Positions 10,645 through 27,578 of a DNA stretch of 39,889 nucleotides are shown here, piece by piece (within the stretch, counting starts at the first letter, position 1; every line of letters begins with the position of its first letter). The DNA is from a virus. Where the stretch lies: the IMG/VR virus record IMGVR_UViG_3300032073_000071, positions 1-39,889 of that record. The stretch is one strand, 5' to 3'. Below the pieces are notes generated by a model. That model had not been told where the DNA came from and made no database searches. It saw nothing but the letters and a program-made list of their open reading frames with translations. The position numbers and the translations under genes are program-made.

Positions 10645-10654
10645 ATAATAAAAT

Positions 10655-13204: not shown

Positions 13205-13214
13205 TTAATATAAT

Positions 13215-14830: not shown

Positions 14831-15118
14831 ATGACACTATTTTACCAGACTCATTCGTGGAGTAGTCAACCACAAATTTCAGAAAAAACCCAAAACCTTT
14901 GGAAGCATATTGCTCAAAAGAAAAATTGGCGGATAACCCAATTACCTAATGGTTTTTATCAAACTGAATACCAAGATCCCGAAGCTCAAGAGTGGATGGA
15001 TGTAACCCGTAGAGAAACACTTGAAGGTGCTGAAGAAGCTGTAATAGCTTCTGTAAAGCATTACGAGAAAAAAATAGAGTTCTTAAACGGTCCAAAAGTC
15101 GTTAAGACCTTTAAATAA
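14831..15118 (+). CDS. Conserved hypothetical phage protein (95 aa)
   Basis: A small soluble, Trp/Gln-rich protein starting MTLFYQTHSWSSQPQISEK. The middle (NGFYQTEYQDPEAQEWMDV) is followed by TRRETLEGAEEAVIASVKHY and a C-terminal GPKVVKTFK. I believe similar short proteins occur in other phages, but no function is known to me. There is no membrane segment or cysteine. Its position 27 bases ahead of GroEL, behind a candidate promoter, places it as the first gene of the chaperonin transcript. A DNA-binding or assembly-helper role would be guesswork. Confidence 0.7.
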   Translation: MTLFYQTHSWSSQPQISEKTQNLWKHIAQKKNWRITQLPNGFYQTEYQDPEAQEWMDVTRRETLEGAEEAVIASVKHYEKKIEFLNGPKVVKTFK

Positions 15119-15145
15119 AATAAATCAAATCAAATTTAATCTAAT

Positions 15146-16696
15146 ATGTCAGACTTAATAGTCAAAAATCTTAATTTTGGGCAAGAAGCCCAAAGTCAAG
15201 TATTTAAAGGAATCGATAAACTCACACAAGCTGTTAGCTCTACTTTAGGGGCTAGTGGCAAGTGTGTTTTACTAGAAGATGATAAAGGAACTCCTGTTAT
15301 TACTAAAGATGGTGTTACTGTTGCTAATTCAATTGTTTTATTAGATCCTGTAGAAAATATGGGGGCTACTCTTTTAAAAGAAGCAGCAAGAAAAACAGTT
15401 TCCGAAGCAGGTGATGGCACTACAACAGCAACAATACTTGCTCATGCTATATTAGAAGAAGCTAAAGATATTAATATTAATTCAAGAGAATTAAAAGAAG
15501 GTATTCAAAGTGCTGTTAAAAAAGTAATTAAATATTTAGAAAAAATAGCTATTCCAGTAAAAGGAGATATGATTGATCAAATAGCTACAATTTCAACTAA
15601 TAATGATGCTAAGCTAGGAAAAATTATCGGGGATGCATTTAGATCTGTTGGTGAAACAGGCGTAGTAATGATGGAACATTCTTCCTTACCGGAAACAGAA
15701 GTTGAATTAGTTGACGGTGTACAATATGAAAAAGGATTGACAAATCCGCATTTTATTACTAATAAAGCAAAAAAGACCGCAGAACTAGAAAACCCCGCAG
15801 TATTACTTATAGAATCTCCAGTAGAAAATATAAGACAAATTCAATCAGTATTAGAGTATGTTATAAAGAATAATACACCTTTACTTATAATAGCAGATGT
15901 AGAAGCTCCTGTTATGGCTACACTTGCTATGAACAAAACAAAGGGTAATATAAAAATAAATATTATAAATGCCCCTACATTTGGAGTTAACAAAAGAGAA
16001 ACTTTAGATGATTTAGCAATGCTTACCGGGGCTACTGTCATAAATGAAGATCTTGGTGATGATATGGATTTAATACAACCTGAATTATTAGGTAGTTGTT
16101 TAAAATCTATAACTGATGAAAAAGATACGATTTTACAAGTTGAAGAGCAGAGTGAAACGGTTTTAAATACAATAGAAACTGTTAAAGAAGAATTAGCCAA
16201 TAAACCTAATCCAGCTCATTTAATAAGACTTGAGAAAAGATTAGCTAGATTATCAGCAAAAATTGCAATAGTAAAAGTTGGGGCAAATTCTGATATAGAA
16301 CTAAAAGAAAAATCGGATAGAATAGAAGATGCTATTTGTGCGACAAAAGCCGCTATAAAAGAAGGAATTGTTCCAGGAGGTGGAATAGCGTTATTAAACG
16401 CGGCAACTAATATAAAAGAAAATAATAAAGCAGAAGAAGTATTAACAAAAGCAATTTTATCACCGTTTACAACTATTTTAGATAATGCGGGTATTAAAGT
16501 TAAACTTCCTACTGAAACAGGAATTGGGATAAATGTAGTAAGCGGTAAAGAAGTAAATATGCAAAAGGCTGGTATTATTGATCCATTACTGGTTACTAAA
16601 AGTGCCCTTATAAACGCCGCTTCAGTAGCTACTACAATATTGTCGACAGATTGTGTAATCAATAATTTAAGAATTGATGAAAGCAATAGGAAATAA
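15146..16696 (+). CDS. groEL: Chaperonin GroEL (phage-encoded, 516 aa)
   Basis: A clear group I chaperonin large subunit. The ATP-site motifs are present: KDGVTVA at 54-60, GDGTTTAT at 89-96, D395 in RIEDAICAT (equivalent to E. coli D398) and GIVPGGG at 407-413. The apical domain is recognisable (NNTPLLIIADVE about 242-253, then INIINAPTFGVNKRETL). At 516 residues it is shorter than the 548 of E. coli, and the C-terminal Gly-Met repeat tail is missing. It should form a double-ring ATP-driven folding cage with the GroES encoded next, whose ATG overlaps its 3' end by 20 bases. By analogy with other phages, capsid or tail proteins are likely clients. Confidence 0.95.
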   Translation: MSDLIVKNLNFGQEAQSQVFKGIDKLTQAVSSTLGASGKCVLLEDDKGTPVITKDGVTVANSIVLLDPVENMGATLLKEAARKTVSEAGDGTTTATILAHAILEEAKDININSRELKEGIQSAVKKVIKYLEKIAIPVKGDMIDQIATISTNNDAKLGKIIGDAFRSVGETGVVMMEHSSLPETEVELVDGVQYEKGLTNPHFITNKAKKTAELENPAVLLIESPVENIRQIQSVLEYVIKNNTPLLIIADVEAPVMATLAMNKTKGNIKINIINAPTFGVNKRETLDDLAMLTGATVINEDLGDDMDLIQPELLGSCLKSITDEKDTILQVEEQSETVLNTIETVKEELANKPNPAHLIRLEKRLARLSAKIAIVKVGANSDIELKEKSDRIEDAICATKAAIKEGIVPGGGIALLNAATNIKENNKAEEVLTKAILSPFTTILDNAGIKVKLPTETGIGINVVSGKEVNMQKAGIIDPLLVTKSALINAASVATTILSTDCVINNLRIDESNRK

Positions 16697-16937
16697 TATT
16701 ATTATAAAACCTGAAAAAGTATCTACACAAAAAACTAAAGGTGGATTGCTTATAATAGAAAAAGATAGAGAAGATATTAGATATCAACAAGGAACGATTG
16801 TTTCAGTAAGTAATGAAATAAAATTTCTTAAAGAAAAAGACGTAATATTTTACGATAAGCATGCTGGGCATGGAATTGAATTTAATAAAGAAAAATTTAC
16901 TATAATTAAAATACAAGATGTTGTTGTGGTTTTATGA
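16677..16937 (+). CDS. groES: Co-chaperonin GroES (86 aa)
   Basis: A small protein starting MKAIGNNIIIKPEKVSTQKT, with the GroES layout: an N-terminal strand with IIIKPE, a mobile-loop region around KTKGGLLIIEK, then QGTIVSVSNE, a KEKDVIFYDKHAG segment like the GDxVxFxxxxG of GroES, and a C-terminal IIKIQDVVVVL. A TTG three bases upstream would add one Met; the ATG at 16677 is preferred. It overlaps the end of groEL by 20 bases and shares ATGA with the next gene, so the three are coupled. It is shorter than the 97 residues of E. coli GroES. It should cap the GroEL ring. Confidence 0.85.
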   Translation: MKAIGNNIIIKPEKVSTQKTKGGLLIIEKDREDIRYQQGTIVSVSNEIKFLKEKDVIFYDKHAGHGIEFNKEKFTIIKIQDVVVVL

Positions 16938-17386
16938 GAAAATTAAACGCAGCAGATATAAAAAAATTAAATTTATTAAAACATTATCGATTAATAAGAA
17001 AGTGGGCTTGTAGAAATAATAATTTAAATGATGCCGATTTAGAATTACTTATTTATTTTGATTGTATGGAGTTATTTACTAAGCAAGACTTTAAAGTCGG
17101 TACTTATGCATATAGTTGGGACAACAGACGCTGGAACAAAATGATAAAAAACAACTGGATTGTGGTTTGGAGAAATCGAAACAGAACAAGTCAAAAGTAT
17201 AATATCTATAAAGTTTCTTTCAAGTGTAAACAACTAATTGCTAGAATGTACCGAATTATGCTAGGAGAAGAAGATGTTCCCACAAGTAAAAGAAGAAATT
17301 CAATTATGCATGGAAAAACTTATACAGATAAAGTTTTAATAACAGCTATTAAAAATGTTAACAAAGATAAAAATAGATATGAATAA
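16934..17386 (+). CDS. Winged-helix-like (MarR-like) protein (150 aa)
   Basis: A basic, mostly helical protein. LNLLKHYRLIRKWACRN is followed by DLELLIYFDCMELFTKQDF and then SWDNRRWNKMIKNNWIVVW, RNRNRTSQKYNIYKVS and FKCKQLIARMYRIMLGEE. This order of helices, a recognition-helix-like segment, a basic beta-hairpin (the wing) and a C-terminal helix resembles MarR-type winged-helix proteins; I recall similar unnamed proteins in other phages. It overlaps groES by 4 bases (ATGA) and the next gene by 8. It could be a transcription regulator or a DNA-packaging factor; neither is demonstrated. Confidence 0.6.
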   Translation: MRKLNAADIKKLNLLKHYRLIRKWACRNNNLNDADLELLIYFDCMELFTKQDFKVGTYAYSWDNRRWNKMIKNNWIVVWRNRNRTSQKYNIYKVSFKCKQLIARMYRIMLGEEDVPTSKRRNSIMHGKTYTDKVLITAIKNVNKDKNRYE

Positions 17387-18239
17387 AAGTCCATTAAATC
17401 ATAACCAACCCAGAGGTAATAATAATCCCAATGCTTTAAACAACGTACGAACTTTAGCTAAAAAAGGAGGTATACATGGTGCGGCAAGAAGAATTCGAGC
17501 TTTACAACAAAGTGGAGGTGATGCTATTAATAATGCAAATGCAATGCAAAATGAGGCTTTAAATAATGTAGAAAACACTGGTGTAGTTAATCCTATTGAT
17601 ATACAAAAAAATCAAGTAGCTGAAGCAAGTGGTTTAACAGCTTTAACAGAAGGACCGGCAAGTGCAGGGTCATCAATTATTCCACAAAAACCAGGCACTT
17701 TAGCTGATCAACAATATAATACTATCTTAGGAGGTTTAGGTAGTAATTCAAGTTTTGCAAATAAAAGTCCATTAAAATTAGCTGAGGTTAATTCTAAAGA
17801 TTTTAGTGAATATGGAGGTTCTTATAGTCAAGGAGGAGATCAAGGAGTTTTTTCCCCTGATAGTGATAACGATGGTATTAGTGATGATACAGAAGCTGTT
17901 GTAGATACGGCTAATTCTTTATCTCAAAATGCTTATAATATAATATCTAGTGCGCAAAATAATAAAGGAAAAGAAAAAACCACTAGAAAACAACGTATTC
18001 AATCAAAAATAGATTCAACTGATAATCCTGCTAAGAAAGAAAGAATGAAAGGAAGATTAGAGAGAATTAATATGAGACAAGAAGGAAGAGCTGCTAGGGG
18101 TGAGAAAAAAAATGAACTTAAAGGTAAGTTTGTACAAGGTATACAGGATTTTAAAAATAAACTCTGGGACGTTGAAGTAAATGATGAAACTGAAGAAATA
18201 CATCAACGTGATTTAAATAAAAGCTTGGGTAAAATATAA
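17379..18239 (+). CDS. Probable virion/cargo protein with SPL motifs (286 aa)
   Basis: The start at 17379 (MNKSPLNHNQPRGNNNPN) is chosen over an in-frame ATG at 17355. It gives the usual 8-base overlap with the upstream gene, and the protein then begins with a motif seen in its neighbours. The sequence is hydrophilic, Asn/Gln/Gly-rich and probably partly disordered. Residue pattern NKSPLK recurs at nt 17760-17780, encoded by an identical 17-nt string. SPDSDNDGISDDTEA resembles a calcium-binding thrombospondin type 3 repeat. The C-terminal third is highly charged and helical (KQRIQSKIDSTDNPAKKERM), perhaps binding nucleic acid. No family recognised. Confidence 0.65.
   Translation: MNKSPLNHNQPRGNNNPNALNNVRTLAKKGGIHGAARRIRALQQSGGDAINNANAMQNEALNNVENTGVVNPIDIQKNQVAEASGLTALTEGPASAGSSIIPQKPGTLADQQYNTILGGLGSNSSFANKSPLKLAEVNSKDFSEYGGSYSQGGDQGVFSPDSDNDGISDDTEAVVDTANSLSQNAYNIISSAQNNKGKEKTTRKQRIQSKIDSTDNPAKKERMKGRLERINMRQEGRAARGEKKNELKGKFVQGIQDFKNKLWDVEVNDETEEIHQRDLNKSLGKI
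17382..17398 (+). repeat. 17-nt direct repeat, copy 1 (copy 2 at 17760-17776)
   Basis: AATAAAAGTCCATTAAA occurs identically here and at 17760-17776, both in frame in the same gene and encoding Asn-Lys-Ser-Pro-Leu. The nucleotide identity points to a recent internal duplication or to conserved function of the encoded motif. It is too short for a mobile element. Confidence 0.6.
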
Positions 18240-18256
18240 TATTAAAGAACAATAAC

Positions 18257-18499
18257 ATGAAAAGTAATTCACCATTTTTAAAAAAGACTATTTCAGAAAT
18301 AAGGGAAGAACCAGGTATGTCAAATGCTGGTAAATATCCTAATGTAAAAAAATCAGATTTTTGTGGTCCTAAAGGAACATATCCTGTTAATACAGTAGAA
18401 AGAGCAAAATCAGCACTTAAATTAGCTCATAATGCTAAAAATCCTGGAAAAGTTAAAGCTTGTGTATACAGAAAGTATCCAGAGCTAAAAGATGACTAA
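18257..18499 (+). CDS. Small basic protein with DUF6582-like region (80 aa)
   Basis: It begins MKSNSPFLKKTISEIREEPG, carrying an SPF motif. From residue 35 it reads FCGPKGTYPVNTVERAKSAL, then LAHNAKNPGKVKACVYRKYP, matching the pattern of the short DUF6582-type segment found in phage head-maturation or structural proteins (aromatic-x-G-x-YP-(V/I), a helix with RAxxAL, then KxxVxRKYP). The role of this segment is unknown. The stop overlaps the next start (TAATG). It is probably a small virion or assembly protein. Confidence 0.65.
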   Translation: MKSNSPFLKKTISEIREEPGMSNAGKYPNVKKSDFCGPKGTYPVNTVERAKSALKLAHNAKNPGKVKACVYRKYPELKDD

Positions 18500-18567
18500 T
18501 GAGTAGTTATCTAATTGCTGGTATAATTATATTTTTATTTATAATTATATTAGAGAATGCACTATAA
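18499..18567 (+). CDS. Single-pass membrane peptide (22 aa)
   Basis: ATG 18499 overlaps the preceding stop (TAATG) and the frame ends at TAA 18565-18567. The product MSSYLIAGIIIFLFIIILEN is almost entirely one transmembrane helix. Such tiny membrane peptides are common in phages and may act in lysis or superinfection, but nothing ties it to a function here. The tight overlap and strongly membrane-like composition are the support; AT-rich chance frames also encode hydrophobic residues, so confidence is moderate. Confidence 0.45.
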   Translation: MSSYLIAGIIIFLFIIILENAL

Positions 18568-18584
18568 CAATAAAAAAAATCATC

Positions 18585-18809
18585 ATGCACGAAGATAAAG
18601 CATATAATAAAGCAAGTAAACAAAAAAAAGTTGGTATTGTTGGAGAATCTCATATATGGGATGGTCCTTTAAACCAAGTAGGAAGAATCCATCAAGTTGG
18701 ATCTAGTTCAGGTATAAAAGGTATGCAAGTATCTAAATACCCAAACTCTAAAGTGGATATGCAAGTAAAATATCCAATTACCGCTATTGCGCAAGGTAAA
18801 AAAATATAA
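18585..18809 (+). CDS. Small basic hypothetical protein (74 aa)
   Basis: It starts MHEDKAYNKASKQKKVGIVG and contains HIWDGPLNQVGRIHQ, where DGPLNQ loosely resembles the SPLN-type motif of its neighbours. It is positively charged, Gly/Ser-containing and has no membrane segment or cysteine. It is not recognised. The gene lies in the run of small genes between the chaperonin and terminase clusters, where minor virion proteins are expected. A short A-rich leader (AATAAAAAAAATCATC) precedes the ATG with no Shine-Dalgarno. Confidence 0.6.
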   Translation: MHEDKAYNKASKQKKVGIVGESHIWDGPLNQVGRIHQVGSSSGIKGMQVSKYPNSKVDMQVKYPITAIAQGKKI

Positions 18810-18840
18810 AAACAAGTAATAAATCATTATAAGTATTAAT

Positions 18841-19167
18841 ATGGAAAAAGGACATTTTGGAGAATATTCTGGCAACGCTAGACATTCTCGTACACCAGTA
18901 ACTAAACATAATGTACATGCTGCAGAACGAGATGATGCTGCACATATAGATTATCTTAAAAGAGATGTTCTTTGGGATGATAAGCATGGACATAGTGATA
19001 TCGATATGACAGCTGATGAAAAACATATATCTAAATTAGCTGGAGATATGAAATACGACAAAAAACATCATTCACCTTTACATAAGGAAGGAGACTGGAG
19101 AAAAGACCTTAAGAAAAAACAAGTAGGGACAAATCCTGATGGTACAAAATATAAAATTAAGGACTAA
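18841..19167 (+). CDS. His/Asp-rich hypothetical protein with SPL motif (108 aa)
   Basis: A charged protein starting MEKGHFGEYSGNARHSRTPV, unusually rich in His and Asp (HVHAAERDDAAHIDYL; DDKHGHSDIDMTADEKHIS). Near the C-terminus is KKHHSPLHKEGDW, a close relative of GSPLHDKGHGG in the protein at 20100. The His/Asp density suggests possible metal binding, but no known site is recognised. No membrane segment. Probably a minor virion or cargo protein by context. Confidence 0.6.
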   Translation: MEKGHFGEYSGNARHSRTPVTKHNVHAAERDDAAHIDYLKRDVLWDDKHGHSDIDMTADEKHISKLAGDMKYDKKHHSPLHKEGDWRKDLKKKQVGTNPDGTKYKIKD

Positions 19168-19185
19168 TAAAACAGAATAGAACTG

Positions 19186-19238
19186 TATAAATCTAACCAA
19201 AACAAAACCAATAACAACAACAAAAACAATAACAAAAA
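19186..19238 (+). promoter_or_regulatory. Candidate promoter with G-free A/C-rich leader
   Basis: TATAAATCTAA at 19186-19196 resembles the element at 14795-14805. From 19194 to 19238 the leader has no G and is mostly CAA/ACA repeats up to the ATG. It cannot form a Shine-Dalgarno and should be unstructured. Such leaders suit Bacteroidota translation, which relies on A-rich, open start regions. High expression of the downstream protein is inferred. Confidence 0.4.
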
Positions 19239-19589
19239 ATGGCAAAATTTATAAAATTTAACATTACTGCAACTGATGTTGCAAATGCACCTAAATCTGT
19301 ACTTATCCCTTTGGATGATATTACAGGAGTAGTTGTACAAGCTAATAATGTATTAGACATTCACTGTGTTGGAGCTCACGCGGCTACTCAATTATGGAAA
19401 TGTACTCCTACAACTGATCAAGGAGGTTCTGCTGCACCAACTATTACTGACGGAGATTCAGTTTATGATGCACTTATATCAGCTATGACAGCTAACCCAG
19501 GTGGTGTTGCTTCAAGTGTAATTTTAGGAAAAGATCAAGCAGCTACTCCAGTTCAAATGTATTGGAGATCTGTAGCATTTACTGCATAA
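19239..19589 (+). CDS. Probable small structural protein (116 aa)
   Basis: It starts MAKFIKFNITATDVANAPKS and has the layout of small beta-rich phage proteins I recall from environmental phages: a first strand pair with VLIPLDDITGVVV, an HCVGAHAATQLWK segment, then DGDSVYDALISAMTANPGG and a final strand with MYWRSVAFTA. Function is not known; decoration or head-surface protein is plausible. It is preceded by an unusual G-free leader and a candidate promoter, suggesting it is made in large amounts. Length and composition fit a virion component. Confidence 0.65.
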   Translation: MAKFIKFNITATDVANAPKSVLIPLDDITGVVVQANNVLDIHCVGAHAATQLWKCTPTTDQGGSAAPTITDGDSVYDALISAMTANPGGVASSVILGKDQAATPVQMYWRSVAFTA

Positions 19590-19599
19590 TAATTAGTTG

Positions 19600-19761
19600 A
19601 TGAAATCACGAGGATTAGGCGATTCTATTGAAAAGTTTACTACTAAAACAGGTATTAAGACCATCGTGGATTCGGTCTCCGAAGGTCTTAATATTCCTTG
19701 TGGATGTCAACAAAGAAAAGATGCACTAAATAAAATGTTTCCATATTCAACAAAAAAATAA
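19600..19761 (+). CDS. Small conserved phage protein with CGC motif (53 aa)
   Basis: The frame from ATG 19600 to TAA 19759-19761 encodes MKSRGLGDSIEKFTTKTGIK, then a helix and IPCGCQQRKDALNKMFPYS. The GLGDxIEKxTxxTGI...CGCxxRKxxLNxxFP pattern is one I recognise as recurring in small proteins of unrelated phages, with no assigned role. The CxC pair could bind metal or form a disulphide. Its stop overlaps the next start (TAATG), which supports it as a gene although it is short. Confidence 0.7.
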   Translation: MKSRGLGDSIEKFTTKTGIKTIVDSVSEGLNIPCGCQQRKDALNKMFPYSTKK

Positions 19762-20087
19762 TGGCTTTTAAACTAAATACTCCTCCTTACGTAGCAACAG
19801 CTCCAGTTCATGAGATTGATATGGAAGATGGTGTACTTGGTAAAGCTGATAAAAATGGAAACATATTAATTAATAATAAAATAACAGATTCTAAACAAAG
19901 ACAAGAAGTTATTAATCATGAACAAGTTCATATTAATGATATTCAATCTGGTCTTTTATATTATGATGATGAAAACGTATATAGTCGTAAATCAGTAAAT
20001 GATAAATGGCAAATTCATTCTCGAGCTAATATGAAAGAAGGTAGTAAGTCTTTGAGTTGGGAGAAAAAAGCACATAAACATTCATAA
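19761..20087 (+). CDS. Putative zinc metallopeptidase-like protein (HExxH, 108 aa)
   Basis: It starts MAFKLNTPPYVATAPVHEID. A helix before and through RQEVINHEQVHINDIQSG places H53-E54-x-x-H57 as a zincin motif; E71, 14 residues after H57 in YYDDENVY, is a candidate third ligand. Metallopeptidases of this minimal size are known in phages and toxins. The N-terminal half may form the usual beta-sheet, and the C-terminus is basic (KEGSKSLSWEKKAHKHS). No signal peptide. It could process virion proteins, act in the host after ejection, or be a non-catalytic structural relative. Zinc binding is inferred. Confidence 0.55.
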   Translation: MAFKLNTPPYVATAPVHEIDMEDGVLGKADKNGNILINNKITDSKQRQEVINHEQVHINDIQSGLLYYDDENVYSRKSVNDKWQIHSRANMKEGSKSLSWEKKAHKHS

Positions 20088-20099
20088 AAAACAAATAAA

Positions 20100-20480
20100 A
20101 TGGGAAAAGGTAAAAAAATGGCTGGTGGTTCATTCATGAGTAAACATGCTAAAAATCTATTGAACTATATGCCTATTGATGACAGAGCTGGTTCAGGTTC
20201 AGATTCAGATTTAAATTATAATGGTAGTCCGTTACATGATAAAGGGCATGGGGGCGCAGAAGGTCATACACACTCTACTATGTCAAATGTAAAAAATTAT
20301 ATTCAAAATAGTTCATTTAATAATTTTAGAATAAAAGGTGGAGGAGACTTACAAAGTCAAAGACGCCCTGCAAACACAAAACCTTTTGGAGAAAGTCGAC
20401 AACAAAAATTCAACAGAGAAGAAACGCGAAAAAAGAATTTAGCTCGTAAAGCTGAAATAAATGCTTTAAAAAAAGGATAA
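20100..20480 (+). CDS. Basic hypothetical protein with SPL-HDKGHGG motif (126 aa)
   Basis: It starts MGKGKKMAGGSFMSKHAKNL and is probably largely disordered, with many Lys, Arg, Asn and Gly. Residues 41-58 read YNGSPLHDKGHGGAEGHT, the clearest instance of the SP(L/F) motif, here followed by Gly/His. The C-terminal part (RQQKFNREETRKKNLARKAE) is a strongly basic helix, suited to nucleic acid or capsid-interior binding. No recognised family. A packaged cargo or scaffold-associated role is inference from composition and position. Confidence 0.6.
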   Translation: MGKGKKMAGGSFMSKHAKNLLNYMPIDDRAGSGSDSDLNYNGSPLHDKGHGGAEGHTHSTMSNVKNYIQNSSFNNFRIKGGGDLQSQRRPANTKPFGESRQQKFNREETRKKNLARKAEINALKKG

Positions 20481-20486
20481 AAATAA

Positions 20487-20906
20487 ATGAGTAAAAAAAA
20501 AGCCTTTAAAGATACAGGTGTAGGTAAATTTCTTATTGAAAAAGCACCTAATATCTTAGGTATTGTTGGAGATGCAATATTACCAGGTAACGTTATTTCA
20601 GAATTAATAACAGGTAATAAAGATTTATCTACTGAAGATAAAGAAGTTGCTTTACAAAAACTAACAATAGAAAGGGCTGAAATTGATGGAACAACAAGGC
20701 GGTGGGTCGCGGATGCTCGTTCAGGGGCGTGGCTTGCTGCTAATGTTCGTCCATTAACTTTAATATTTTTAACAATTAGTTACGTAGTAGGATGGTATTT
20801 ACACTATCCACTTGACTCTATAACTGGACTTCTTTCTATAGTAATAGGAGGTTATTTTGGTTCTCGTGGAGTTGAAAAAGTATTCGGAAACAATAAACAT
20901 AAATAA
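20487..20906 (+). CDS. Holin, 3TM/GTA-type (139 aa)
   Basis: The layout matches the holin-of-3TMs (GTA holin) family: a hydrophobic/amphipathic N-terminal segment (FLIEKAPNILGIVGDAIL, about 16-33), a charged helix (TEDKEVALQKLTIERAEI), then the signature ADARSGAWLAANVRPLTLIF, in which W-L-A-x-x-V-R-P is typical. Two membrane helices follow, about 89-105 and 111-128, ending GGYFGSRGVEKVFG. It would permeabilise the host inner membrane at lysis. No endolysin is visible nearby, so the partner lies elsewhere or is unrecognised. Confidence 0.8.
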   Translation: MSKKKAFKDTGVGKFLIEKAPNILGIVGDAILPGNVISELITGNKDLSTEDKEVALQKLTIERAEIDGTTRRWVADARSGAWLAANVRPLTLIFLTISYVVGWYLHYPLDSITGLLSIVIGGYFGSRGVEKVFGNNKHK

Positions 20907-20912
20907 ATAAAA

Positions 20913-21623
20913 ATGGGATTTTATCAAAAAAATTTAAGCGATGGGTCTACTCAGGCTGTAGCAATTGAAACGGTTGCTACATTAAGGGCTCCTGGAGCTT
21001 CAGCAGATGGTATACCTGTAGGGCAATTTACAGATACTACTGCAAATATAGCTGCAACCGCTCAAGTTGTTACGGCATATGCTTCTGGAGGTACTTTTTT
21101 AGGTTCAGCTGCTAATGTTCAAAATAAACAATGGGGTGCATATTATACTATTGAAGCAGATGGTACAGGAGCTATAACAAAAGTAAGAGTTGTACAAACA
21201 CGACCTGATGGATTAAATCAAGGAGCTGCACCAGGTGCACCTGCTAATCCAGGAGCTGGTCCAAATATGGCGGTTGCTACACAAACAATTATTTTTAGCG
21301 CATCAGATTTAAATACAGCTTTTGGCCAAACTAATATAACAGGTACATTAGAAATAGCTTTAGCTGGTACTGATCTTCAAGCACCAACAACCGGTGCTGA
21401 TGCTGGTACAAACGCAATATATGAAGCAGACCCGGGTTATAGTGGTTTTGGATTATATGTAGGCGGTACAGGTGATATTAAATTAGAATTTGCTGCTGCT
21501 CCACCAAATCAAACAGTAACAATACAAAGTATTCCAGCAGGAACTACTTTAAATATGCTAGTAAGAAAAGTATACACAAATGATGGTACTACAACTGCAT
21601 CAGAAATGGTTGCATTATATTAA
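20913..21623 (+). CDS. Phage structural protein with C-terminal beta-module (236 aa)
   Basis: It starts MGFYQKNLSDGSTQAVAIET and is Ala/Gly/Thr-rich with no charged helices. The last 70 residues (GFGLYVGGTGDIKLEF, QSIPAGTTLNMLVRKVY, ASEMVALY) match a small module I recall widely in phages, with the pattern LYVGxxGDVKV...F.N(V/I)P.G..L.I.V..V...GT.A..IVALY; it is usually regarded as a decoration or minor virion protein. The first 150 residues may be a separate beta-domain. Nearby holin and small structural genes fit this reading. Confidence 0.65.
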   Translation: MGFYQKNLSDGSTQAVAIETVATLRAPGASADGIPVGQFTDTTANIAATAQVVTAYASGGTFLGSAANVQNKQWGAYYTIEADGTGAITKVRVVQTRPDGLNQGAAPGAPANPGAGPNMAVATQTIIFSASDLNTAFGQTNITGTLEIALAGTDLQAPTTGADAGTNAIYEADPGYSGFGLYVGGTGDIKLEFAAAPPNQTVTIQSIPAGTTLNMLVRKVYTNDGTTTASEMVALY

Positions 21624-21650
21624 TAATTAAATTAAATTAAATTAACTCTA

Positions 21651-21920
21651 ATGAAAAAAGAAGAAAAAGAATTAAAAGTTACAGAAGAACAACTATCAAA
21701 AATTAAACAATCACAAGAAGATATTGCTACATTATTAAGAGATGTAGGGTTTTTAGAAACACAAAAACACGCTATATTACATAAATATGCAGGTGTAGTA
21801 CAGGATTCAGAAAACTACAAAGCAGAATTAGAAAAAGAATATGGTGCAATAAATGTTAATCTTGAAGATGGTAGTTATACTATAATAAAGACTGAAGATA
21901 AAGATAAAGATAGTGAGTAA
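21651..21920 (+). CDS. Coiled-coil hypothetical protein (89 aa)
   Basis: It starts MKKEEKELKVTEEQLSKIKQ and is almost entirely a charged helix, with LETQKHAILHKYAGVVQD and a C-terminal GAINVNLEDGSYTII. The combination (long coiled coil, then a short 'EKEYGxxNxNxxDGxYT' strand) is one I recall from small phage proteins of unknown role found close to terminase genes. It overlaps the next gene by 8 bases. It might be an assembly or packaging accessory; this is not shown. Confidence 0.65.
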   Translation: MKKEEKELKVTEEQLSKIKQSQEDIATLLRDVGFLETQKHAILHKYAGVVQDSENYKAELEKEYGAINVNLEDGSYTIIKTEDKDKDSE

Positions 21921-22140
21921 CATTATAAGAAAAATCAGTGTTGGACCTGATTATAAAAATGATGCTATGCACTATGCCGTAGGGCAACAAGTGTATGGTG
22001 GTCATACTATTTCTCATATTTTAAATAATGAAGAAGAACAATCTTATAATATTTTTATTAAAAAAGATAATGAAGTTTTGCCTTGGAAAAAATTTAATTC
22101 TAATATGGCTATTTCAGTAGAATATGATTTAGAATATTAA
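21913..22140 (+). CDS. Conserved hypothetical phage protein (75 aa)
   Basis: The apparent start is GTG at 21913 (GTGAGTAAC), overlapping the preceding stop by 8 bases; the next in-frame ATG would remove the conserved-looking beginning. The product reads MSNIIRKISVGPDYKNDAMH, then VGQQVYGGHTISHIL, FIKKDNEVLPWKKFN and a C-terminal SVEYDLEY. It looks like a compact beta-rich protein of a type I associate with phage terminase neighbourhoods; function unknown. Its stop overlaps the next start (TAATG), so it is coupled on both sides. Confidence 0.65.
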   Translation: MSNIIRKISVGPDYKNDAMHYAVGQQVYGGHTISHILNNEEEQSYNIFIKKDNEVLPWKKFNSNMAISVEYDLEY

Positions 22141-22745
22141 TGAATAGTATTTATCAATTTATTATAAAACCTATTGGTGAAAGATATAAAAATAAAATAA
22201 ACATAGAAGGAAAAGAACTTTTAGTAAATACTAGTATATCTAATCATAAATTTATAAATAGAGAAGCTGAAGTAATAAGTATTCCACTTAATTATAAAGG
22301 TAATATAATAAAAGGAGATAAAGTTATAGTTCATCATAATTTATTTAGAAGATATTATTATGTAAAAGGTAAATCAGTAAATAGTAGTAAGTATTTTAAA
22401 GATGAATTATATTTTGCTATACCTTCTCAAATATATTTATATAATAAAAATAATGAATGGTGCACACATGAAAATTTTTGTTTTGTTAAACCAATTATAA
22501 AAAATAGTAAGTTTAAGAAAGAAAAATTACAAAAGCATAAAGGAATACTAAAATTTGGTAATAATACCTTAGAGGCACTTCAAATTACTCCTGGGGATGT
22601 AGTAGGGTTTAAACCCAATAGAGAGTTTGAGTTTATTATAAATAATGAACTTTTATATTGTATGGAATCTAATGATATTGTAATTAAATATGAACACGAA
22701 ACAAACCAAGAAGAGTATAATCCAAGCTGGGCAAAAAGCTGTTGA
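22140..22745 (+). CDS. Probable tandem GroES-like co-chaperonin (201 aa)
   Basis: The sequence appears to hold two GroES-like beta-barrel units. Unit 1 (about 1-115) has FIIKPIGERYKNKINIEGKE, then REAEVISIPLNYKGNIIKGD, KVIVHHNLFRRYY and QIYLYNKNNEW, like the GxVxxxP...KxGDxVxxHHxxF of phage GroES proteins. Unit 2 (about 116-195) repeats it with CFVKPI, KGILKFGN, ITPGDVVGFKPNREFEFII and DIVIKYE. I recall similar roughly 200-aa GroES-like proteins in other phages. It would be a second co-chaperonin besides the one at 16677. It overlaps the next gene by 56 bases. Fold assignment is by eye. Confidence 0.55.
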   Translation: MNSIYQFIIKPIGERYKNKINIEGKELLVNTSISNHKFINREAEVISIPLNYKGNIIKGDKVIVHHNLFRRYYYVKGKSVNSSKYFKDELYFAIPSQIYLYNKNNEWCTHENFCFVKPIIKNSKFKKEKLQKHKGILKFGNNTLEALQITPGDVVGFKPNREFEFIINNELLYCMESNDIVIKYEHETNQEEYNPSWAKSC

Positions 22746-22962
22746 AGAATTAATTAAAGTAGCTAAAGAAAAAATAGTTGATTCAGAAGATGATGTTTCA
22801 GCTGATAGATTAAAAAATGCTGCAGCTACAAAAAAATTAGCTATTTTTGATGCTTTTGAGATTTTAACACGTATAGAAGAGGAAGAAAATATGTTAAAAG
22901 AAATAAAAGATGAAAACCGCGGAAATAATTTTAAAGGTTTTGCAGAAGGTAGATCAAAATGA
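22690..22962 (+). CDS. Candidate terminase small subunit (90 aa)
   Basis: A small all-helical, acidic protein starting MNTKQTKKSIIQAGQKAVEE, with ADRLKNAAATKKLAIFDAFE in the middle and a basic Gly-rich tail. It lies immediately before TerL with a 4-base overlap (ATGA), the standard place of TerS. Similar small helical proteins precede TerL in other phages as I recall. There is no evident helix-turn-helix, and no direct DNA-binding evidence, so this is a position-led call. Its first 56 bases lie inside the 3' end of the preceding gene in another frame. Confidence 0.5.
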   Translation: MNTKQTKKSIIQAGQKAVEELIKVAKEKIVDSEDDVSADRLKNAAATKKLAIFDAFEILTRIEEEENMLKEIKDENRGNNFKGFAEGRSK

Positions 22963-25184
22963 TATATAATCAAACTTTATTTAAAGTATTACCTAACTAT
23001 ATTAGGTCAAGTATAATAAAAAGAAACAATAGATATAAAAAGTGGAAATATGGGTACGATCAAGAACATGATATCGTGGTTATTAGTAAAACTGGGAAAA
23101 TTGGTGAAATATATCAAATACAAAATCTCACAATTGCTTTACCATTAGAAGAAAATACATACAAAAGATCTAAAAAGAAAGATGAACAATATTGGGAAGT
23201 ATTTGAATATCCTAAAATATTATCAAAACTAAAAACAGTTTTTGATTGGAATAATACTTCTCTAGATTTTAAAAACAAATGGTATGATTATATTGATGAA
23301 GAATTTAAAAGACGTGAAGAAGGTTTTTGGTTTTATAACCAAGGCAGTAGCACTTATCTTACTGGTTCTCATTATATGTACTTGCAGTGGACCAAGATTG
23401 ATGTTGGGAAACCAGACTTTCGAGAGTCCAATAGACTTTTCTTTATTTTTTGGGAAGCGTGTAAAGCCGATAACCGGTGTTACGGAATGTGCTACCTTAA
23501 GAACCGTAGATCTGGATTTTCTTTCATGGCATCCTCAGAATTGGTACACCAAGCCACTATATCCTCGGATTCACGATATGGAATATTATCTAAAACTGGA
23601 GCTGATGCGAAGAAAATGTTTACTGACAAAGTGGTACCAATATCAGTTAACTATCCCTTCTTTTTCAAACCAATCCAGGACGGTATGGATCGCCCCAAGA
23701 CGGAACTCGCGTATAGAGTCCCTGCCTCGAAACTTACCAGAAAAAAGTTGGACCAGAATAGTCAAATCGAAGACATCCAGGGGTTGGATACAACCATCGA
23801 TTGGAAGAACACGGGGGACAACTCCTACGATGGGGAGAAGTTACAAGTCCTTGCCCACGACGAATCAGGGAAATGGGAGAGGCCGGATAATATCCTCAAC
23901 AACTGGAGAGTCACGAAAACGACGTTAAGATTAGGAAGTAGAATAGTAGGAAAATGTATGATGGGTTCTACTTCAAACGCTTTAGATAAAGGAGGAGATA
24001 ATTTTAAAAAATTATATGAAGCTTCAGACGTTACAAAACGAAACCGCAACGGACAGACTAATTCAGGACTTTATAATTTGTTCATTCCTATGGAATGGAA
24101 CTACGAAGGATACATTGATTCTTATGGCGTACCTGTCTTCGAAACTCCAAAAAAAGCGGTTAAAAGTATTGATGGATCCCAAATTAACATCGGAGTTATC
24201 TCACATTGGGAAAATGAAGTAGAAGGTTTAAAAACTGATCAAGATAGTTTAAATGAATTTTATAGACAATTTCCCAGAACTGAAAAACATGCCTTTAGAG
24301 ATGAGGCTAAACAGTCTCTTTTTAATCTTACTAAAATATACGAGCAGATAGATTATAATGAAGATTTAAAACACTCTAATGTTTTAACACGTGGAGGTTT
24401 TCAATGGGAAAATGCAATAAAAGATACTAGAGTTGTTTTTGTACCTCATAAAACTGGGAGATTTTTAGTTAGTTGGGTTCCTCCTGCCCGTTTACAAAAT
24501 AGATATATAATAAAAAATGGAATACGGTTTCCTGGTAATCCGGACTGTGGGGCTTTTGGTTGTGATCCATACGATATTTCAGGAACAGTAGATGGAAGAG
24601 GTTCAAAAGGATCTTTGCATGGTTTAAGTAAATTTACTATGGAAGACATTCCTCCTAATATGTTTTTTTTAGAATACATTGCACGACCTCAAACTGCAGA
24701 AATATTTTTTGAAGATGTGTTAATGGCTTTAGTTTTTTATGGAATGCCATTACTTGCAGAAAATAATAAACCAAGATTATTATATTATTTAAAACGTAGA
24801 GGATATCGGGGATATTCTATGAATAGACCAGATAGAATTTATAATAAATTATCTGTTGCGGAAAGAGAAATAGGTGGTATACCTAATTCAAGTGAAGATA
24901 TAAAACAAGCTCACGCCGCTGCTATAGAAGATTATATAGAAAATTATATAGGATATACAGAAGATAGATATGGTGATATGTATTTTCAGAAAACTTTAGA
25001 AGATTGGGCAAGTTTTAATATTAATAACAGAACTAAGCATGATGCGGCAATAAGTTCAGGTTTAGCAATTATGGCTTGTAATAAAAACAGATATACACCA
25101 GTAGTGAATAGAACAATAACACAAGTTCCTTTAGGTTTTAAAAAATACGATAATAAAGGGGTAAATTCAAAAATTCTAAAATAG
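22959..25184 (+). CDS. terL: Terminase large subunit (741 aa)
   Basis: The packaging motor ATPase/nuclease. N-terminal region: GSSTYLTGSHYMYLQWTKID near residue 130, typical of crAss-like and related TerL. A deviant Walker A, LKNRRSGFS, is at 180-188; Walker B, VLAHDES, has D301-E302; a coupling-motif-like GSTSNAL follows. The nuclease domain begins near D529 (NPDCGAFGCDPYD, D536) and its last acidic residue is probably D695 in KHDAAISSGLA. The length fits the crAss-like group. The stretch of roughly 23380-23940, covering the ATPase core, is far GC-richer than the rest and uses C/G-ending codons, yet the frame is intact. The portal starts directly after its stop. Confidence 0.9.
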   Translation: MIYNQTLFKVLPNYIRSSIIKRNNRYKKWKYGYDQEHDIVVISKTGKIGEIYQIQNLTIALPLEENTYKRSKKKDEQYWEVFEYPKILSKLKTVFDWNNTSLDFKNKWYDYIDEEFKRREEGFWFYNQGSSTYLTGSHYMYLQWTKIDVGKPDFRESNRLFFIFWEACKADNRCYGMCYLKNRRSGFSFMASSELVHQATISSDSRYGILSKTGADAKKMFTDKVVPISVNYPFFFKPIQDGMDRPKTELAYRVPASKLTRKKLDQNSQIEDIQGLDTTIDWKNTGDNSYDGEKLQVLAHDESGKWERPDNILNNWRVTKTTLRLGSRIVGKCMMGSTSNALDKGGDNFKKLYEASDVTKRNRNGQTNSGLYNLFIPMEWNYEGYIDSYGVPVFETPKKAVKSIDGSQINIGVISHWENEVEGLKTDQDSLNEFYRQFPRTEKHAFRDEAKQSLFNLTKIYEQIDYNEDLKHSNVLTRGGFQWENAIKDTRVVFVPHKTGRFLVSWVPPARLQNRYIIKNGIRFPGNPDCGAFGCDPYDISGTVDGRGSKGSLHGLSKFTMEDIPPNMFFLEYIARPQTAEIFFEDVLMALVFYGMPLLAENNKPRLLYYLKRRGYRGYSMNRPDRIYNKLSVAEREIGGIPNSSEDIKQAHAAAIEDYIENYIGYTEDRYGDMYFQKTLEDWASFNINNRTKHDAAISSGLAIMACNKNRYTPVVNRTITQVPLGFKKYDNKGVNSKILK

Positions 25185-27578
25185 ATGGTTAAGATTAACT
25201 ACAATAGTGCTTTCCCAGATCAGGTGGTACCTGAAGAAGAGAAAAAATCTAAAGAATATGGTTTACAAGTAGCACAAGCCATTGAAGGAGAGTGGTTTAA
25301 AAATTCAAGTGGCAGAAATAGATTTATTAATAATTTTCAAAATTTTAATAGATTAAGATTATATGCTCGTGGAGAACAACCTGTTCAAAAATACAAAGAT
25401 GAATTAGCTATAAATGGTGATTTATCATATTTAAATTTAGATTGGAAACCCGTACCTATTCTTTCTAAATTTGTAGATATAGTAGTTAATGGTATGACTG
25501 ATAAAGGTTATAAAGTTAACTCCTTTGCAACAGACCCTTTTGCAATGAAACAAAGAACACATTACGCATCAACTGCATTAAGAGATATTCAAAGTAAAGC
25601 TGAAATAGATGCCTTAGCTCAAGCCACTGGTCGTAATTTTTATTCTTCTCCAAATCCACAGTCATTACCAGACAACCCAGAGGAATTAGATCTTTATATG
25701 CAATTAGATTATAAACAGAGTGTAGAAATTGCAGAAGAAGAGGTTATAAATAATGTATTAGATTTTAATAAATACGAAGAAACAAAAAAAAGAATAGCCT
25801 ACGATTTAACTGTTTTAGGTATTGGATGTGTAAAAACTAATTTTAATTTAGCAGAAGGAATTACAGTAGATTATGTAGATCCAGCTAATATAGTTTATTC
25901 ATATACAGATGATCCAAACTTTGAAGATATTTATTATGTAGGGGAAGTAAAAAATATGTCATTATCCGAAGTTAAAAGACAGTTTCCTTACTTAACAGAT
26001 AGTGATTTAGAAGAAATACAAAAATATCCAGGAAGAAATTCATATGTAAATAACACTTGGTGGGGACAAGAAGCACAAGATCAAGTTCAAGTTTTGTTTT
26101 TTGAATATAAAACATATCAAAATCAAGTATTTAAAATAAAAGAAACTGATCAAGGATTACAAAAAACTTTAGAAAAACCCGATACTTTCAATCCTCCTGA
26201 AAATGATAATTTTGAAAGAGTAAGTAGAGCAATAGAAGTATTATATAGTGGGGCTAAAGTTTTAGGATTGGGAGGAAATTTATTGCAATGGGAATTAAGT
26301 GCTAATATGACTAGGCCGTTTAGCGATACTACAAAAGTTAATATGAATTATGCAATAAGTTCTCCTAGAATGTATCAAGGAAGAATTGAATCTATTGTAA
26401 GTAAGTGTGTTGGATTTGCTGATATGATACAATTAACACATTTAAAATTACAACAAGTACTTGCTAGATTAGTACCAGATGGAGTTTATTTAGATGTAGA
26501 TGGTTTAGCAGAAGTAGATCTTGGAAATGGAACTAATTATAATCCAGCTGAAGCATTAAACATGTATTTTCAAACTGGTAGTATAGTAGGAAGATCTTTA
26601 ACACAAGATGGGGAATTAAACAGAGGTAAAGTACCTGTACAAGAGCTACAAAGTTCATCTGGAATTTCTAAGATACAATCGATGATCCAAACATATCAAT
26701 ATTATCTACAAATGATTAGAGATGTTACGGGACTAAACGAAGCTAGAGATGGTAGCACTCCGGCAAAAGACTCTTTGGTAGGTCTTCAAAAACTTGCTGC
26801 CGCTAATTCAAATACAGCAACAAAACACGTTCTTCAGTCTCTTATGTATCTAACTGTTCGTGCGTGTGAGAATATAGCATTAAGAGTATCTGATATGTTG
26901 CAGTTTCCTTTAACAAAGAATAGTTTATTAAACAGCATTAACACATTTAATGTTAACACTTTAAAGGAACTAGAACATTTGCACTTGCATGATTTTGGTA
27001 TATTTTTAGAATTAGAACCAGAAGAAGAAGAAAAAGCTGAATTAGAAAAAACAATTCAAATAGCTTTACAAGCAGGTAATATAGGATTAGAAGATGCAAT
27101 AGATATAAGAGAAATTCAAAACATCAAACTTGCTAATCAACTTTTAAAAAATAGACAAAAGAAAAAACAAGAAGCAGAAAGAGCTGCTCAACTAGAGAAT
27201 ATTGAAGCACAAGCCGCTGCAAATGCAGAGGCCGCTGAAAAGGCAGCTTTATCTGACGTACAAAAACAACAAGCAATTGCACAAACTGAAGTACAAATAG
27301 AACAAGCAAAGTCGCAATTTGAAATTGAAAGGATGGAGCAAGAGGCAATTATAAAGAAACAATTAATGGCAGAAGAATTTAATTATGATATGCAATTAGC
27401 TCAAATTCAGGCTCAATCACAACAACAAAAAGAAGCTGCTATAGAAGATCGTAAAGATAAACGAATAAAAATACAAGGTACACAACAAAGTGAACTTATA
27501 GATCAACGTCAAAATGATTTATTACCTAAAGATTTTGAATCTACTGGTAGTGATAGTTTAGTGGGTTTTGGATTATAA
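25185..27578 (+). CDS. Portal protein (797 aa)
   Basis: It follows TerL without a gap. MVKINYNSAFPDQVVPEEEK is followed by EGEWFKNSSGRNRFINNFQN and LNLDWKPVPILSKFVDIVVN, typical of large portals in short-tailed phages. DYVDPANIVYSYTDDPNFED and IRDVTGLNEARDGS are further portal-type segments. The last 180 residues are a Gln/Glu/Ala-rich coiled coil (KKKQEAERAAQLENIEAQAA), probably the barrel reaching into the capsid. The size agrees with the crAss-like group (about 800 residues). It forms the dodecameric DNA entry ring between head and tail. Confidence 0.9.
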   Translation: MVKINYNSAFPDQVVPEEEKKSKEYGLQVAQAIEGEWFKNSSGRNRFINNFQNFNRLRLYARGEQPVQKYKDELAINGDLSYLNLDWKPVPILSKFVDIVVNGMTDKGYKVNSFATDPFAMKQRTHYASTALRDIQSKAEIDALAQATGRNFYSSPNPQSLPDNPEELDLYMQLDYKQSVEIAEEEVINNVLDFNKYEETKKRIAYDLTVLGIGCVKTNFNLAEGITVDYVDPANIVYSYTDDPNFEDIYYVGEVKNMSLSEVKRQFPYLTDSDLEEIQKYPGRNSYVNNTWWGQEAQDQVQVLFFEYKTYQNQVFKIKETDQGLQKTLEKPDTFNPPENDNFERVSRAIEVLYSGAKVLGLGGNLLQWELSANMTRPFSDTTKVNMNYAISSPRMYQGRIESIVSKCVGFADMIQLTHLKLQQVLARLVPDGVYLDVDGLAEVDLGNGTNYNPAEALNMYFQTGSIVGRSLTQDGELNRGKVPVQELQSSSGISKIQSMIQTYQYYLQMIRDVTGLNEARDGSTPAKDSLVGLQKLAAANSNTATKHVLQSLMYLTVRACENIALRVSDMLQFPLTKNSLLNSINTFNVNTLKELEHLHLHDFGIFLELEPEEEEKAELEKTIQIALQAGNIGLEDAIDIREIQNIKLANQLLKNRQKKKQEAERAAQLENIEAQAAANAEAAEKAALSDVQKQQAIAQTEVQIEQAKSQFEIERMEQEAIIKKQLMAEEFNYDMQLAQIQAQSQQQKEAAIEDRKDKRIKIQGTQQSELIDQRQNDLLPKDFESTGSDSLVGFGL

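Follow-up and report, generated by a model that had tools for sequence, protein, structure and literature searches.

Here, we describe a predicted tandem GroES protein, with two GroES barrels in one chain, encoded beside the terminase genes of a marine, Flavobacteria-type phage. The gene lies in IMG/VR virus record IMGVR_UViG_3300032073_000071, whose 39,889 bases were analyzed in full (the window). The window also encodes a GroEL and a single-domain GroES (sES). We consider the chances somewhat better than even that the tandem protein (dES) serves as a GroEL lid subunit resembling plastid Cpn20, is made with the head genes, and completes a seven-domain lid together with sES. A sequence-only reading of the window had placed three chaperonin-type genes in this region. 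Their coordinates hold: GroEL and sES pass their Pfam cut-offs, and dES matches the PHROGs family phrog_13932. The chaperonin features, with the evidence for each, are as follows.

15146..16696, plus strand: phage GroEL (Cpn60), 516 amino acids; Pfam Cpn60_TCP1, phrog_5725, solved GroEL 8wuw_A
16677..16937, plus strand: sES, 86 amino acids, from the ATG at 16677; Pfam Cpn10; mobile loop KGGLLI
22140..22745, plus strand: dES, 201 amino acids; phrog_13932, AlphaFold2 model, match to 7ekq_R
22140..22454, plus strand: dES domain 1, residues 1-105, predicted GroES barrel; 4pko_O; hhalign to the sES profile
22218..22226, plus strand: domain 1 mobile-loop hydrophobic tripeptide, residues 27-29 (LLV), followed by N30; 84-sequence alignment
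22455..22694, plus strand: dES domain 2, residues 106-185, predicted GroES barrel; 8wuc_a; hhalign to the sES profile
22494..22541, plus strand: shortened mobile-loop region of domain 2, 16 residues between P118 and G135; 84-sequence alignment
22695..22742, plus strand: dES C-terminal tail, YNPSWAKS type; alignment A1; only in the window's clade

Predicted structure of the tandem GroES

An AlphaFold2 model of dES, built from 84 sequences, reached a predicted local distance difference test score (pLDDT) of 88.4 and a predicted template-modeling score (pTM) of 0.83. It contains two barrels that each match GroES, bearing out what had been read by eye in 22140-22745. The top solved match of the model in Foldseek was 7ekq_R, a subunit of the Cpn20 co-chaperonin (E 5.1e-4, TM 0.55/0.57), and the ranks that followed were GroES-type chains. 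Structural alignment with VIA-align paired model residues 1-185 with Chlamydomonas Cpn20 7ekq_R across both domains (Z 10.1, 154 residues, 3.8 Å). Taken separately, domain 1 (model residues 1-104) aligned with GroES 4pko_O (Z 7.7, 81 residues, 3.3 Å) and with T4 gp31 (1g31_A; Z 6.8, 84 residues, 4.2 Å), and domain 2 (model residues 106-185) aligned with GroES 8wuc_a (Z 8.1, 78 residues, 2.1 Å). A Z below 8 is middling on its own; the next rows after GroES were dehydrogenases, with Z 4.9 and below. The fold search against GroES and gp31 that had been proposed as a check thus found the barrels present and both proteins among the matches.

The model of a relative, L149, which is 33% identical to the window dES (pLDDT 82.3, pTM 0.75), was also best matched by tandem Cpn20 (Z 10.2, 166 residues, 4.9 Å). 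Among viral predicted structures, the second match of dES was the phi18:3 "Chaperonin cpn10"; the first match carries no name.

At the sequence level, dES matches phrog_13932, "co-chaperonin GroES", with E 8.6e-27 (residues 1-182 against positions 1-197 of the 200-position profile), and the same family is matched by the tandem proteins of Pachyviridae, phi38:1, Panino, elemoF, and MW202828. Domain 2 exceeds the Pfam Cpn10 (PF00166) cut-off of 21.1 bits in phi38:1-like members (24.1-28.2 bits), in L148 and L149, and in Pachyviridae (32.7-34.2 bits). For domain 1, elemoF gives a match to a GroES profile, phrog_3188 (E 3e-4, residues 14-64). Profile-profile comparison of domain 2 with sES in hhalign gave E 6.5e-5 with alignment A2 and 5.6e-5 with alignment A1 (probabilities 64 and 66). 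A2 holds 84 rows thinned at 93% identity and drawn from IMG/VR loci only, with no named-record loci; five loci lacking a full-length ATG-started frame (L056, L063, L123, L124, and L131) were excluded from it. A search of the PDB with the single dES sequence returned chance matches only; with the A2 profile, the top match was an acyltransferase without relation to GroES (E 0.013), and a Thermus cpn10 appeared at E 2. For the window dES, sequence alone leaves the fold unproven.

The two domains differ in their mobile loops. Residues 27-29 of domain 1 lie at what we take to be the place of the GroEL-binding tripeptide in the GroES mobile loop. These positions hold V, I, L, M, or F in 84/84, 82/84, and 76/84 dES sequences, and N30 is present in 84/84; by analogy to GroES, the tripeptide is a putative GroEL-binding site. 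The corresponding region of domain 2 in window-type dES is shortened and lacks a conserved tripeptide: it spans 16 residues in 70 of the 84 sequences, 11 in nine, 17-18 in two, and 26-27 in three, the last being phi38:1-like. Of the two barrels with mobile loops that had been looked for, both barrels are predicted, a loop is retained in domain 1, and the domain 2 loop is shortened in the window lineage. An alignment of nine sequences representing the lineages has the long domain 2 loop in phi46:3, L148, L149, and phi38:1 and the short one in the window, L062, Panino, elemoF, and MW202828. Sorted by GroEL ownership, the short loop occurs in four of five lineages with GroEL (window group, Panino, elemo, and MW202828; not phi38:1) and in neither of the two lineages without it, a small sample. 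From these differences, the lids seem to be adjusted to whichever GroEL is available.

Plastid Cpn20 (Cpn21/Cpn23; 7ekq chain R, with chain Q also matching) is the closest known counterpart. It likewise joins two GroES barrels head to tail within a single chain of about 200 residues, and, according to the available text of PMC5780408, the plant and algal protein also coexists with a single-domain Cpn10. dES differs in being viral and in sharing only 12-14% identity in the aligned region. Furthermore, its domain 2 loop is short in the window lineage, whereas both loops are described as retained in apicomplexan cpn20 (PMC3542282). Because Cpn20 is recognized by a loop in both domains and the domain 2 loop of dES has 11 or 16 residues in 79/84 sequences, dES would work like Cpn20 rather than be a member of it. 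T4 gp31 is likewise a phage-encoded co-chaperonin with the GroES fold, but it is single-domain and acts with the host GroEL, as described in PMC5780408 and PMC6318259, whereas the window phage encodes a GroEL of its own and one further GroES.

The GroES label of this gene is already known: many public records and PHROGs carry it as "co-chaperonin GroES" or "cpn10". The match of phrog_13932 to dES is nearly full length, but the one-line description of the family mentions neither the tandem nature nor the short domain 2 loop. GroEL was reported earlier in this phage group, in 36 of the 78 EVGs that make up group 2 (available text of PMC5332604), as were GroEL and GroES in Panino (available text of PMC11590407). 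Tandem co-chaperonins have been described as chloroplast-specific and were later found in the apicoplast (available portions of PMC3542282 and PMC5780408). We found no report of a phage tandem GroES in the literature searched, a coverage that leaves out most subscription journals and preprints, and a term search of PMC7077304, on Baltic Flavobacterium phages, returned no mention of chaperonins. The tandem, Cpn20-like nature of the protein appears to be new in viruses.

Spread of the tandem GroES and its pairing with single GroES

Relatives that cover 80% or more of the window dES occur in 77 phage records, 68 of them phages of Flavobacterium sp. BAL314 (elemo throughout, among the matches listed). 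With the L149 protein as query, 86 phage records were retrieved, 85 at 80% coverage or more. The named hosts of these phages are Flavobacterium, Cellulophaga, and Maribacter. A profile scan of IMG/VR found at least 595 stretches encoding dES relatives, of which 80 were kept; together with other scans, this gave the 161 IMG/VR loci analyzed, the five loci excluded from A2 included, and five named loci brought the number with a dES match to 166. Among the IMG/VR loci, the terminase large subunit (TerL) gene lies downstream of dES in all 135 that extend at least 1500 bases in that direction. Wherever TerL is matched, it starts within 767 bases of the end of dES (668-767 bases in four loci). The tandem GroES by the terminase is thus a conserved arrangement of several flavophage lineages, extending beyond one segment.

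A search of bacterial and archaeal genomes with one pattern gave nine loci, all in records titled as metagenome-assembled genomes, on contigs of 4.2-78.9 kilobases (kb), which we read as probable phage contigs. One of them, L213, encodes a dES relative that is 55% identical; its contig was assigned to a Euryarchaeota genome bin and is most likely a misbinned phage contig.

Three further candidates were rejected. The 195-residue gene just upstream of the terminase in the crAss-like phage phi14:2 and the 182-residue gene near the terminase in cr111_1 are not GroES-like and have no Cpn10 match, and Crassvirales were left outside the tandem family. The whole records of both phages contain GroEL and no PF00166 match. 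Two other proteins of these phages look more like a single GroES: one of 136 residues in cr111_1, with a weak phrog_3188 match, and one of 129 residues in phi14:2, which is among the weak viral fold matches (E 1.5e-2). A weak second Cpn10 match in DAC19 (16.3 bits, in a 218-residue frame) was dropped, as the frame is not GroES-like.

The Flavobacterium phage MaF61 provides another tandem. Its ORF64 (L178:3412-3975, 187 residues) has two Cpn10 matches (59.6 bits), and a separate single-domain Cpn10 match lies at record positions 91662-91916, so that, as in the dES phages, tandem and single GroES share a genome. Unlike dES, ORF64 is directly upstream of a GroEL, a diverged one. The dES profile does not match ORF64, and its exact patterns found no relative in the viral contigs searched; this tandem GroES is probably independent or very diverged.

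The two partner genes of the window are well supported. GroEL matches Pfam Cpn60_TCP1 (E 8.5e-60, 203.3 bits against a cut-off of 34.3) and phrog_5725 (E 3.1e-134), and its residues 7-505 align nearly end to end with solved GroEL 8wuw_A (E 5.4e-113). The NCBIfam subfamily models NF009487 and NF000592 are above cut-off, and the equivalog TIGR02348 is below it (452 against 582.1). GDGTTT and the D of RIEDA, presumably the GroEL ATPase motifs, are kept in the alignment to 8wuw_A. sES matches Pfam Cpn10 (E 7.9e-12, 45.5 bits against 21.1), and the KGGLLI of its mobile loop conforms to the GGLL[IL] type found in most of the 26-sequence alignment A3. Because tblastn with sES reached only three phage records, pairing was judged with the Cpn10 profile.

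We searched 14 named records whole, nine picked for dES and five for other phage GroELs. The dES profile was found in nine of the 14; single GroES was present in 9/9 of these and GroEL in 5/9. These nine represent five lineages: Panino, elemo, MW202828, phi38:1/Calle, and Pachyviridae, the last with four records. The four Pachyviridae genomes (phi46:3, phi18:3, phi19:3, and phi13:2) are recorded as complete and circular, and they carry both co-chaperonins with no GroEL match. Across the 161 IMG/VR loci, single GroES is matched in all 58 with a GroEL match. We also searched 28 hand-picked IMG/VR records whole: every record of at least 48.9 kb among the 161 loci (14 in number), 11 whose loci show no GroEL or GroES match despite 7 kb upstream, and others, in overlapping sets; three duplicate isolates (phi38:1, Calle_1, and an elemo phage). 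GroEL is present in 20 of the 28 and single GroES in 21. Among those of at least 48.9 kb, single GroES occurs in 14/14 and GroEL in 13/14. In the L148 record (72.8 kb), both co-chaperonins are present and GroEL is not matched.

Together, in the genomes that can be judged, tandem and single GroES form a constant pair, with GroEL as an optional partner. The presence of single GroES in 9/9 dES genomes, four of them without GroEL, points to joint action of the two co-chaperonins and speaks against a separate lid for each GroEL. The sequence-only reading had proposed such a division of labor, with dES capping the host GroEL and sES the phage ring. In its favor, sES overlaps the phage GroEL gene in the window and dES lies elsewhere, and the domain 2 loops differ between the lineages with and without phage GroEL, although few were sampled. 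However, the four complete Pachyviridae genomes and the L148 record keep both lids with no GroEL match. Retention of sES where no phage ring exists fits poorly with this proposal, and, if both proteins are lids, both must act on the host GroEL in Pachyviridae. We therefore disfavor it and consider it highly improbable.

A proposed mixed lid and its alternatives

In the reading we prefer, dES would be a lid subunit on the GroEL ring, the phage's own ring here and the host's in relatives without GroEL. The GroEL ring has seven subunits and the domains of dES come in pairs, so a mixed lid of three dES chains and one sES would be most likely. Because only domain 1 and sES keep an anchoring loop, such a lid in the window lineage would have four anchors, from the domain 1 and sES loops alone. 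That three dES and one sES give exactly four anchors is arithmetic and no proof of assembly. For dES, we infer GroEL binding, a 3:1 stoichiometry, late timing, and a capsid client. In support of the mixed lid, tandem Cpn20 is the best solved match for two distant members, the window dES and L149.

The available text on plastids offers a parallel. Cpn20 and Cpn10 form functional seven-domain hetero-oligomers there (PMC5780408, PMC4242682), three Cpn20 and one Cpn10 are suggested as the dominant form (PMC4242682, PMC5780408), and at least four of the seven subunits are stated to have to work for GroEL binding (PMC4242682). This likeness to the chloroplast double lid protein suggests that phages assemble mixed lids for the folding of their own proteins.

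Because its gene sits with the terminase, portal, and capsid genes, dES would probably be made late and adapt the folding chamber to head proteins. T4 gp31 and gp23 provide the precedent for a co-chaperonin and its head client (available text of PMC5780408), and analogy to them suggests late expression and a head client for dES. The GroEL of phi38:1 is made during infection, going by its methylated residues among the phage proteins in the accessible part of PMC13288928, one table of which reads as free-virion. In a stricter version, the mixed lid of three dES and one sES would be obligate, its four anchors would just reach the stated minimum for GroEL binding, and dES, made late, would turn a general folding chamber into one for the capsid. 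This version is possible but doubtful; if true, the Cpn20/Cpn10 lid of chloroplasts would have a viral equivalent.

The main alternative is a tandem lid that needs no partner, since tetramers of Cpn20 are functional by themselves (available text of PMC3542282). Here, dES would form a homo-oligomer, e.g. four chains with eight domains of which one is left out, and act as a gp31-like special lid, sES being the ordinary seven-fold lid. At-cpn20 and Pf-cpn20 are described as mainly tetramers and functional without Cpn10 (PMC3542282), and one of the eight domains of the plastid tetramer is proposed to be left out. The match of domain 1 to gp31 and the kilobases that separate the dES and sES genes in the loci seen agree with a separate lid. 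Conversely, single GroES accompanies dES in 9/9 genomes even without GroEL, though the host presumably has GroES, and a tetramer in the window lineage would carry four loops only, judging from the loop alignment. We regard this alternative as unlikely, though less so than the one that follows.

dES could instead be a GroES fold repurposed for packaging or head assembly by the terminase, with GroEL binding lost. Its constant place upstream of TerL (135/135 loci), the eroded domain 2 loop of several lineages, and an HHN.FR motif conserved in dES (A1) and absent from the single GroES alignment A3 would all suit such a role. Nevertheless, the domain 1 tripeptide is conserved across 84 sequences, both loops appear intact by eye in phi46:3, L148, and L149, dES pairs with single GroES, and the phi38:1 record labels several neighbors structural but not dES (annotation only). 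The conserved domain 1 loop and the pairing with sES make this role less likely, and we hold it to be improbable.

Several observations weigh against the mixed lid or the tandem assignment beneath it. The window dES matches no Pfam and no NCBIfam family, and it stays below the Cpn10 profile cut-off, as do the tandem proteins of Panino, elemoF, and MW202828. A comparison of each half with GroES profiles had been suggested as a check; domain 2 and, more weakly, domain 1 match the sES profile in hhalign, domain 1 with E 1.7e-4 and a moderate probability of 49.5. A further comparison of domain 2 with single GroES was likewise moderate (probability 80.5 over 35 columns), and the two domains have no detectable sequence likeness to each other in hhalign (probability 3.6). 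sES itself is below all the NCBIfam GroES cut-offs listed, the best score being 38.8 bits against 109.

The genomic data raise further objections. The whole-record searches reached only nine of roughly 85 named records, and these are not independent. In seven of the 28 IMG/VR records, all of 42.1 kb or less and perhaps fragments, dES occurs without GroEL or single GroES. The GroEL and sES genes share the strand of dES in 51 of the 58 loci and lie on the opposite strand in seven, as in elemo. Distance correlations given TerL were raised for all three pairs, both in 27 loci (dES-sES 0.61, dES-GroEL 0.74, sES-GroEL 0.56) and in the 24 loci of the window's clade (0.45, 0.40, and 0.55, respectively), and so single out no dES-sES contact; such mirror-tree correlations do not separate the mixed lid from its rivals. 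Finally, the pairing would also arise if the two proteins act independently within the same pathway, and Cpn20 can be self-sufficient without Cpn10 in plastid and apicoplast, according to the available text of PMC3542282 and PMC5780408.

Widespread, paired with sES, and partly loop-less, the phage tandem GroES offers a natural test of why there are even-numbered lids and how few anchors a lid needs. The cultured members phi38:1, elemo, and phi46:3 make it testable in laboratory phages.

Neighboring genes in the window

The window is probably a fragment, because a near-identical copy of its chaperonin genes sits on a 69,119-base contig (L004). Its GroEL and sES genes overlap by 20 bases; dES follows 5.2 kb downstream of sES and is itself followed by a 90-residue gene, TerL, and portal. 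The neighboring features are listed below.

21913..22140, plus strand: conserved 75-residue gene abutting the dES start; similar 71-80-residue proteins in relatives
22690..22962, plus strand: 90-residue gene between dES and TerL, possible small terminase; position, weak phrog_445 match (E 0.12)
22959..25184, plus strand: TerL; phrog_6681, E 1.8e-162
25185..27578, plus strand: portal protein; phrog_6547, E 3.4e-143
28940..30394, plus strand: virion structural protein, 484 residues, probable major capsid protein; phrog_13704 "virion structural protein", E 6.2e-89

The 484-residue structural protein is a candidate client of the tandem GroES. The equivalent place in the Calle_1 gene order holds an annotated major capsid protein, a likeness that is positional. 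The 75-residue protein of the window resembles proteins of 71-80 residues whose genes immediately precede dES in Panino, elemoF, phi38:1, and MW202828, and phi46:3 carries a different gene at this place; the product is a possible functional partner of dES.

The YNPSWAKS tail of dES is strongly conserved in the window's clade only and shares bases with the beginning of the following frame (22690-22745); overlapping coding may be the source of this conservation. Upstream of the chaperonin genes, three neighboring genes at positions 8500-14753 encode large proteins that by eye are tail fiber- or adhesin-like; glycine is very abundant in the first two.

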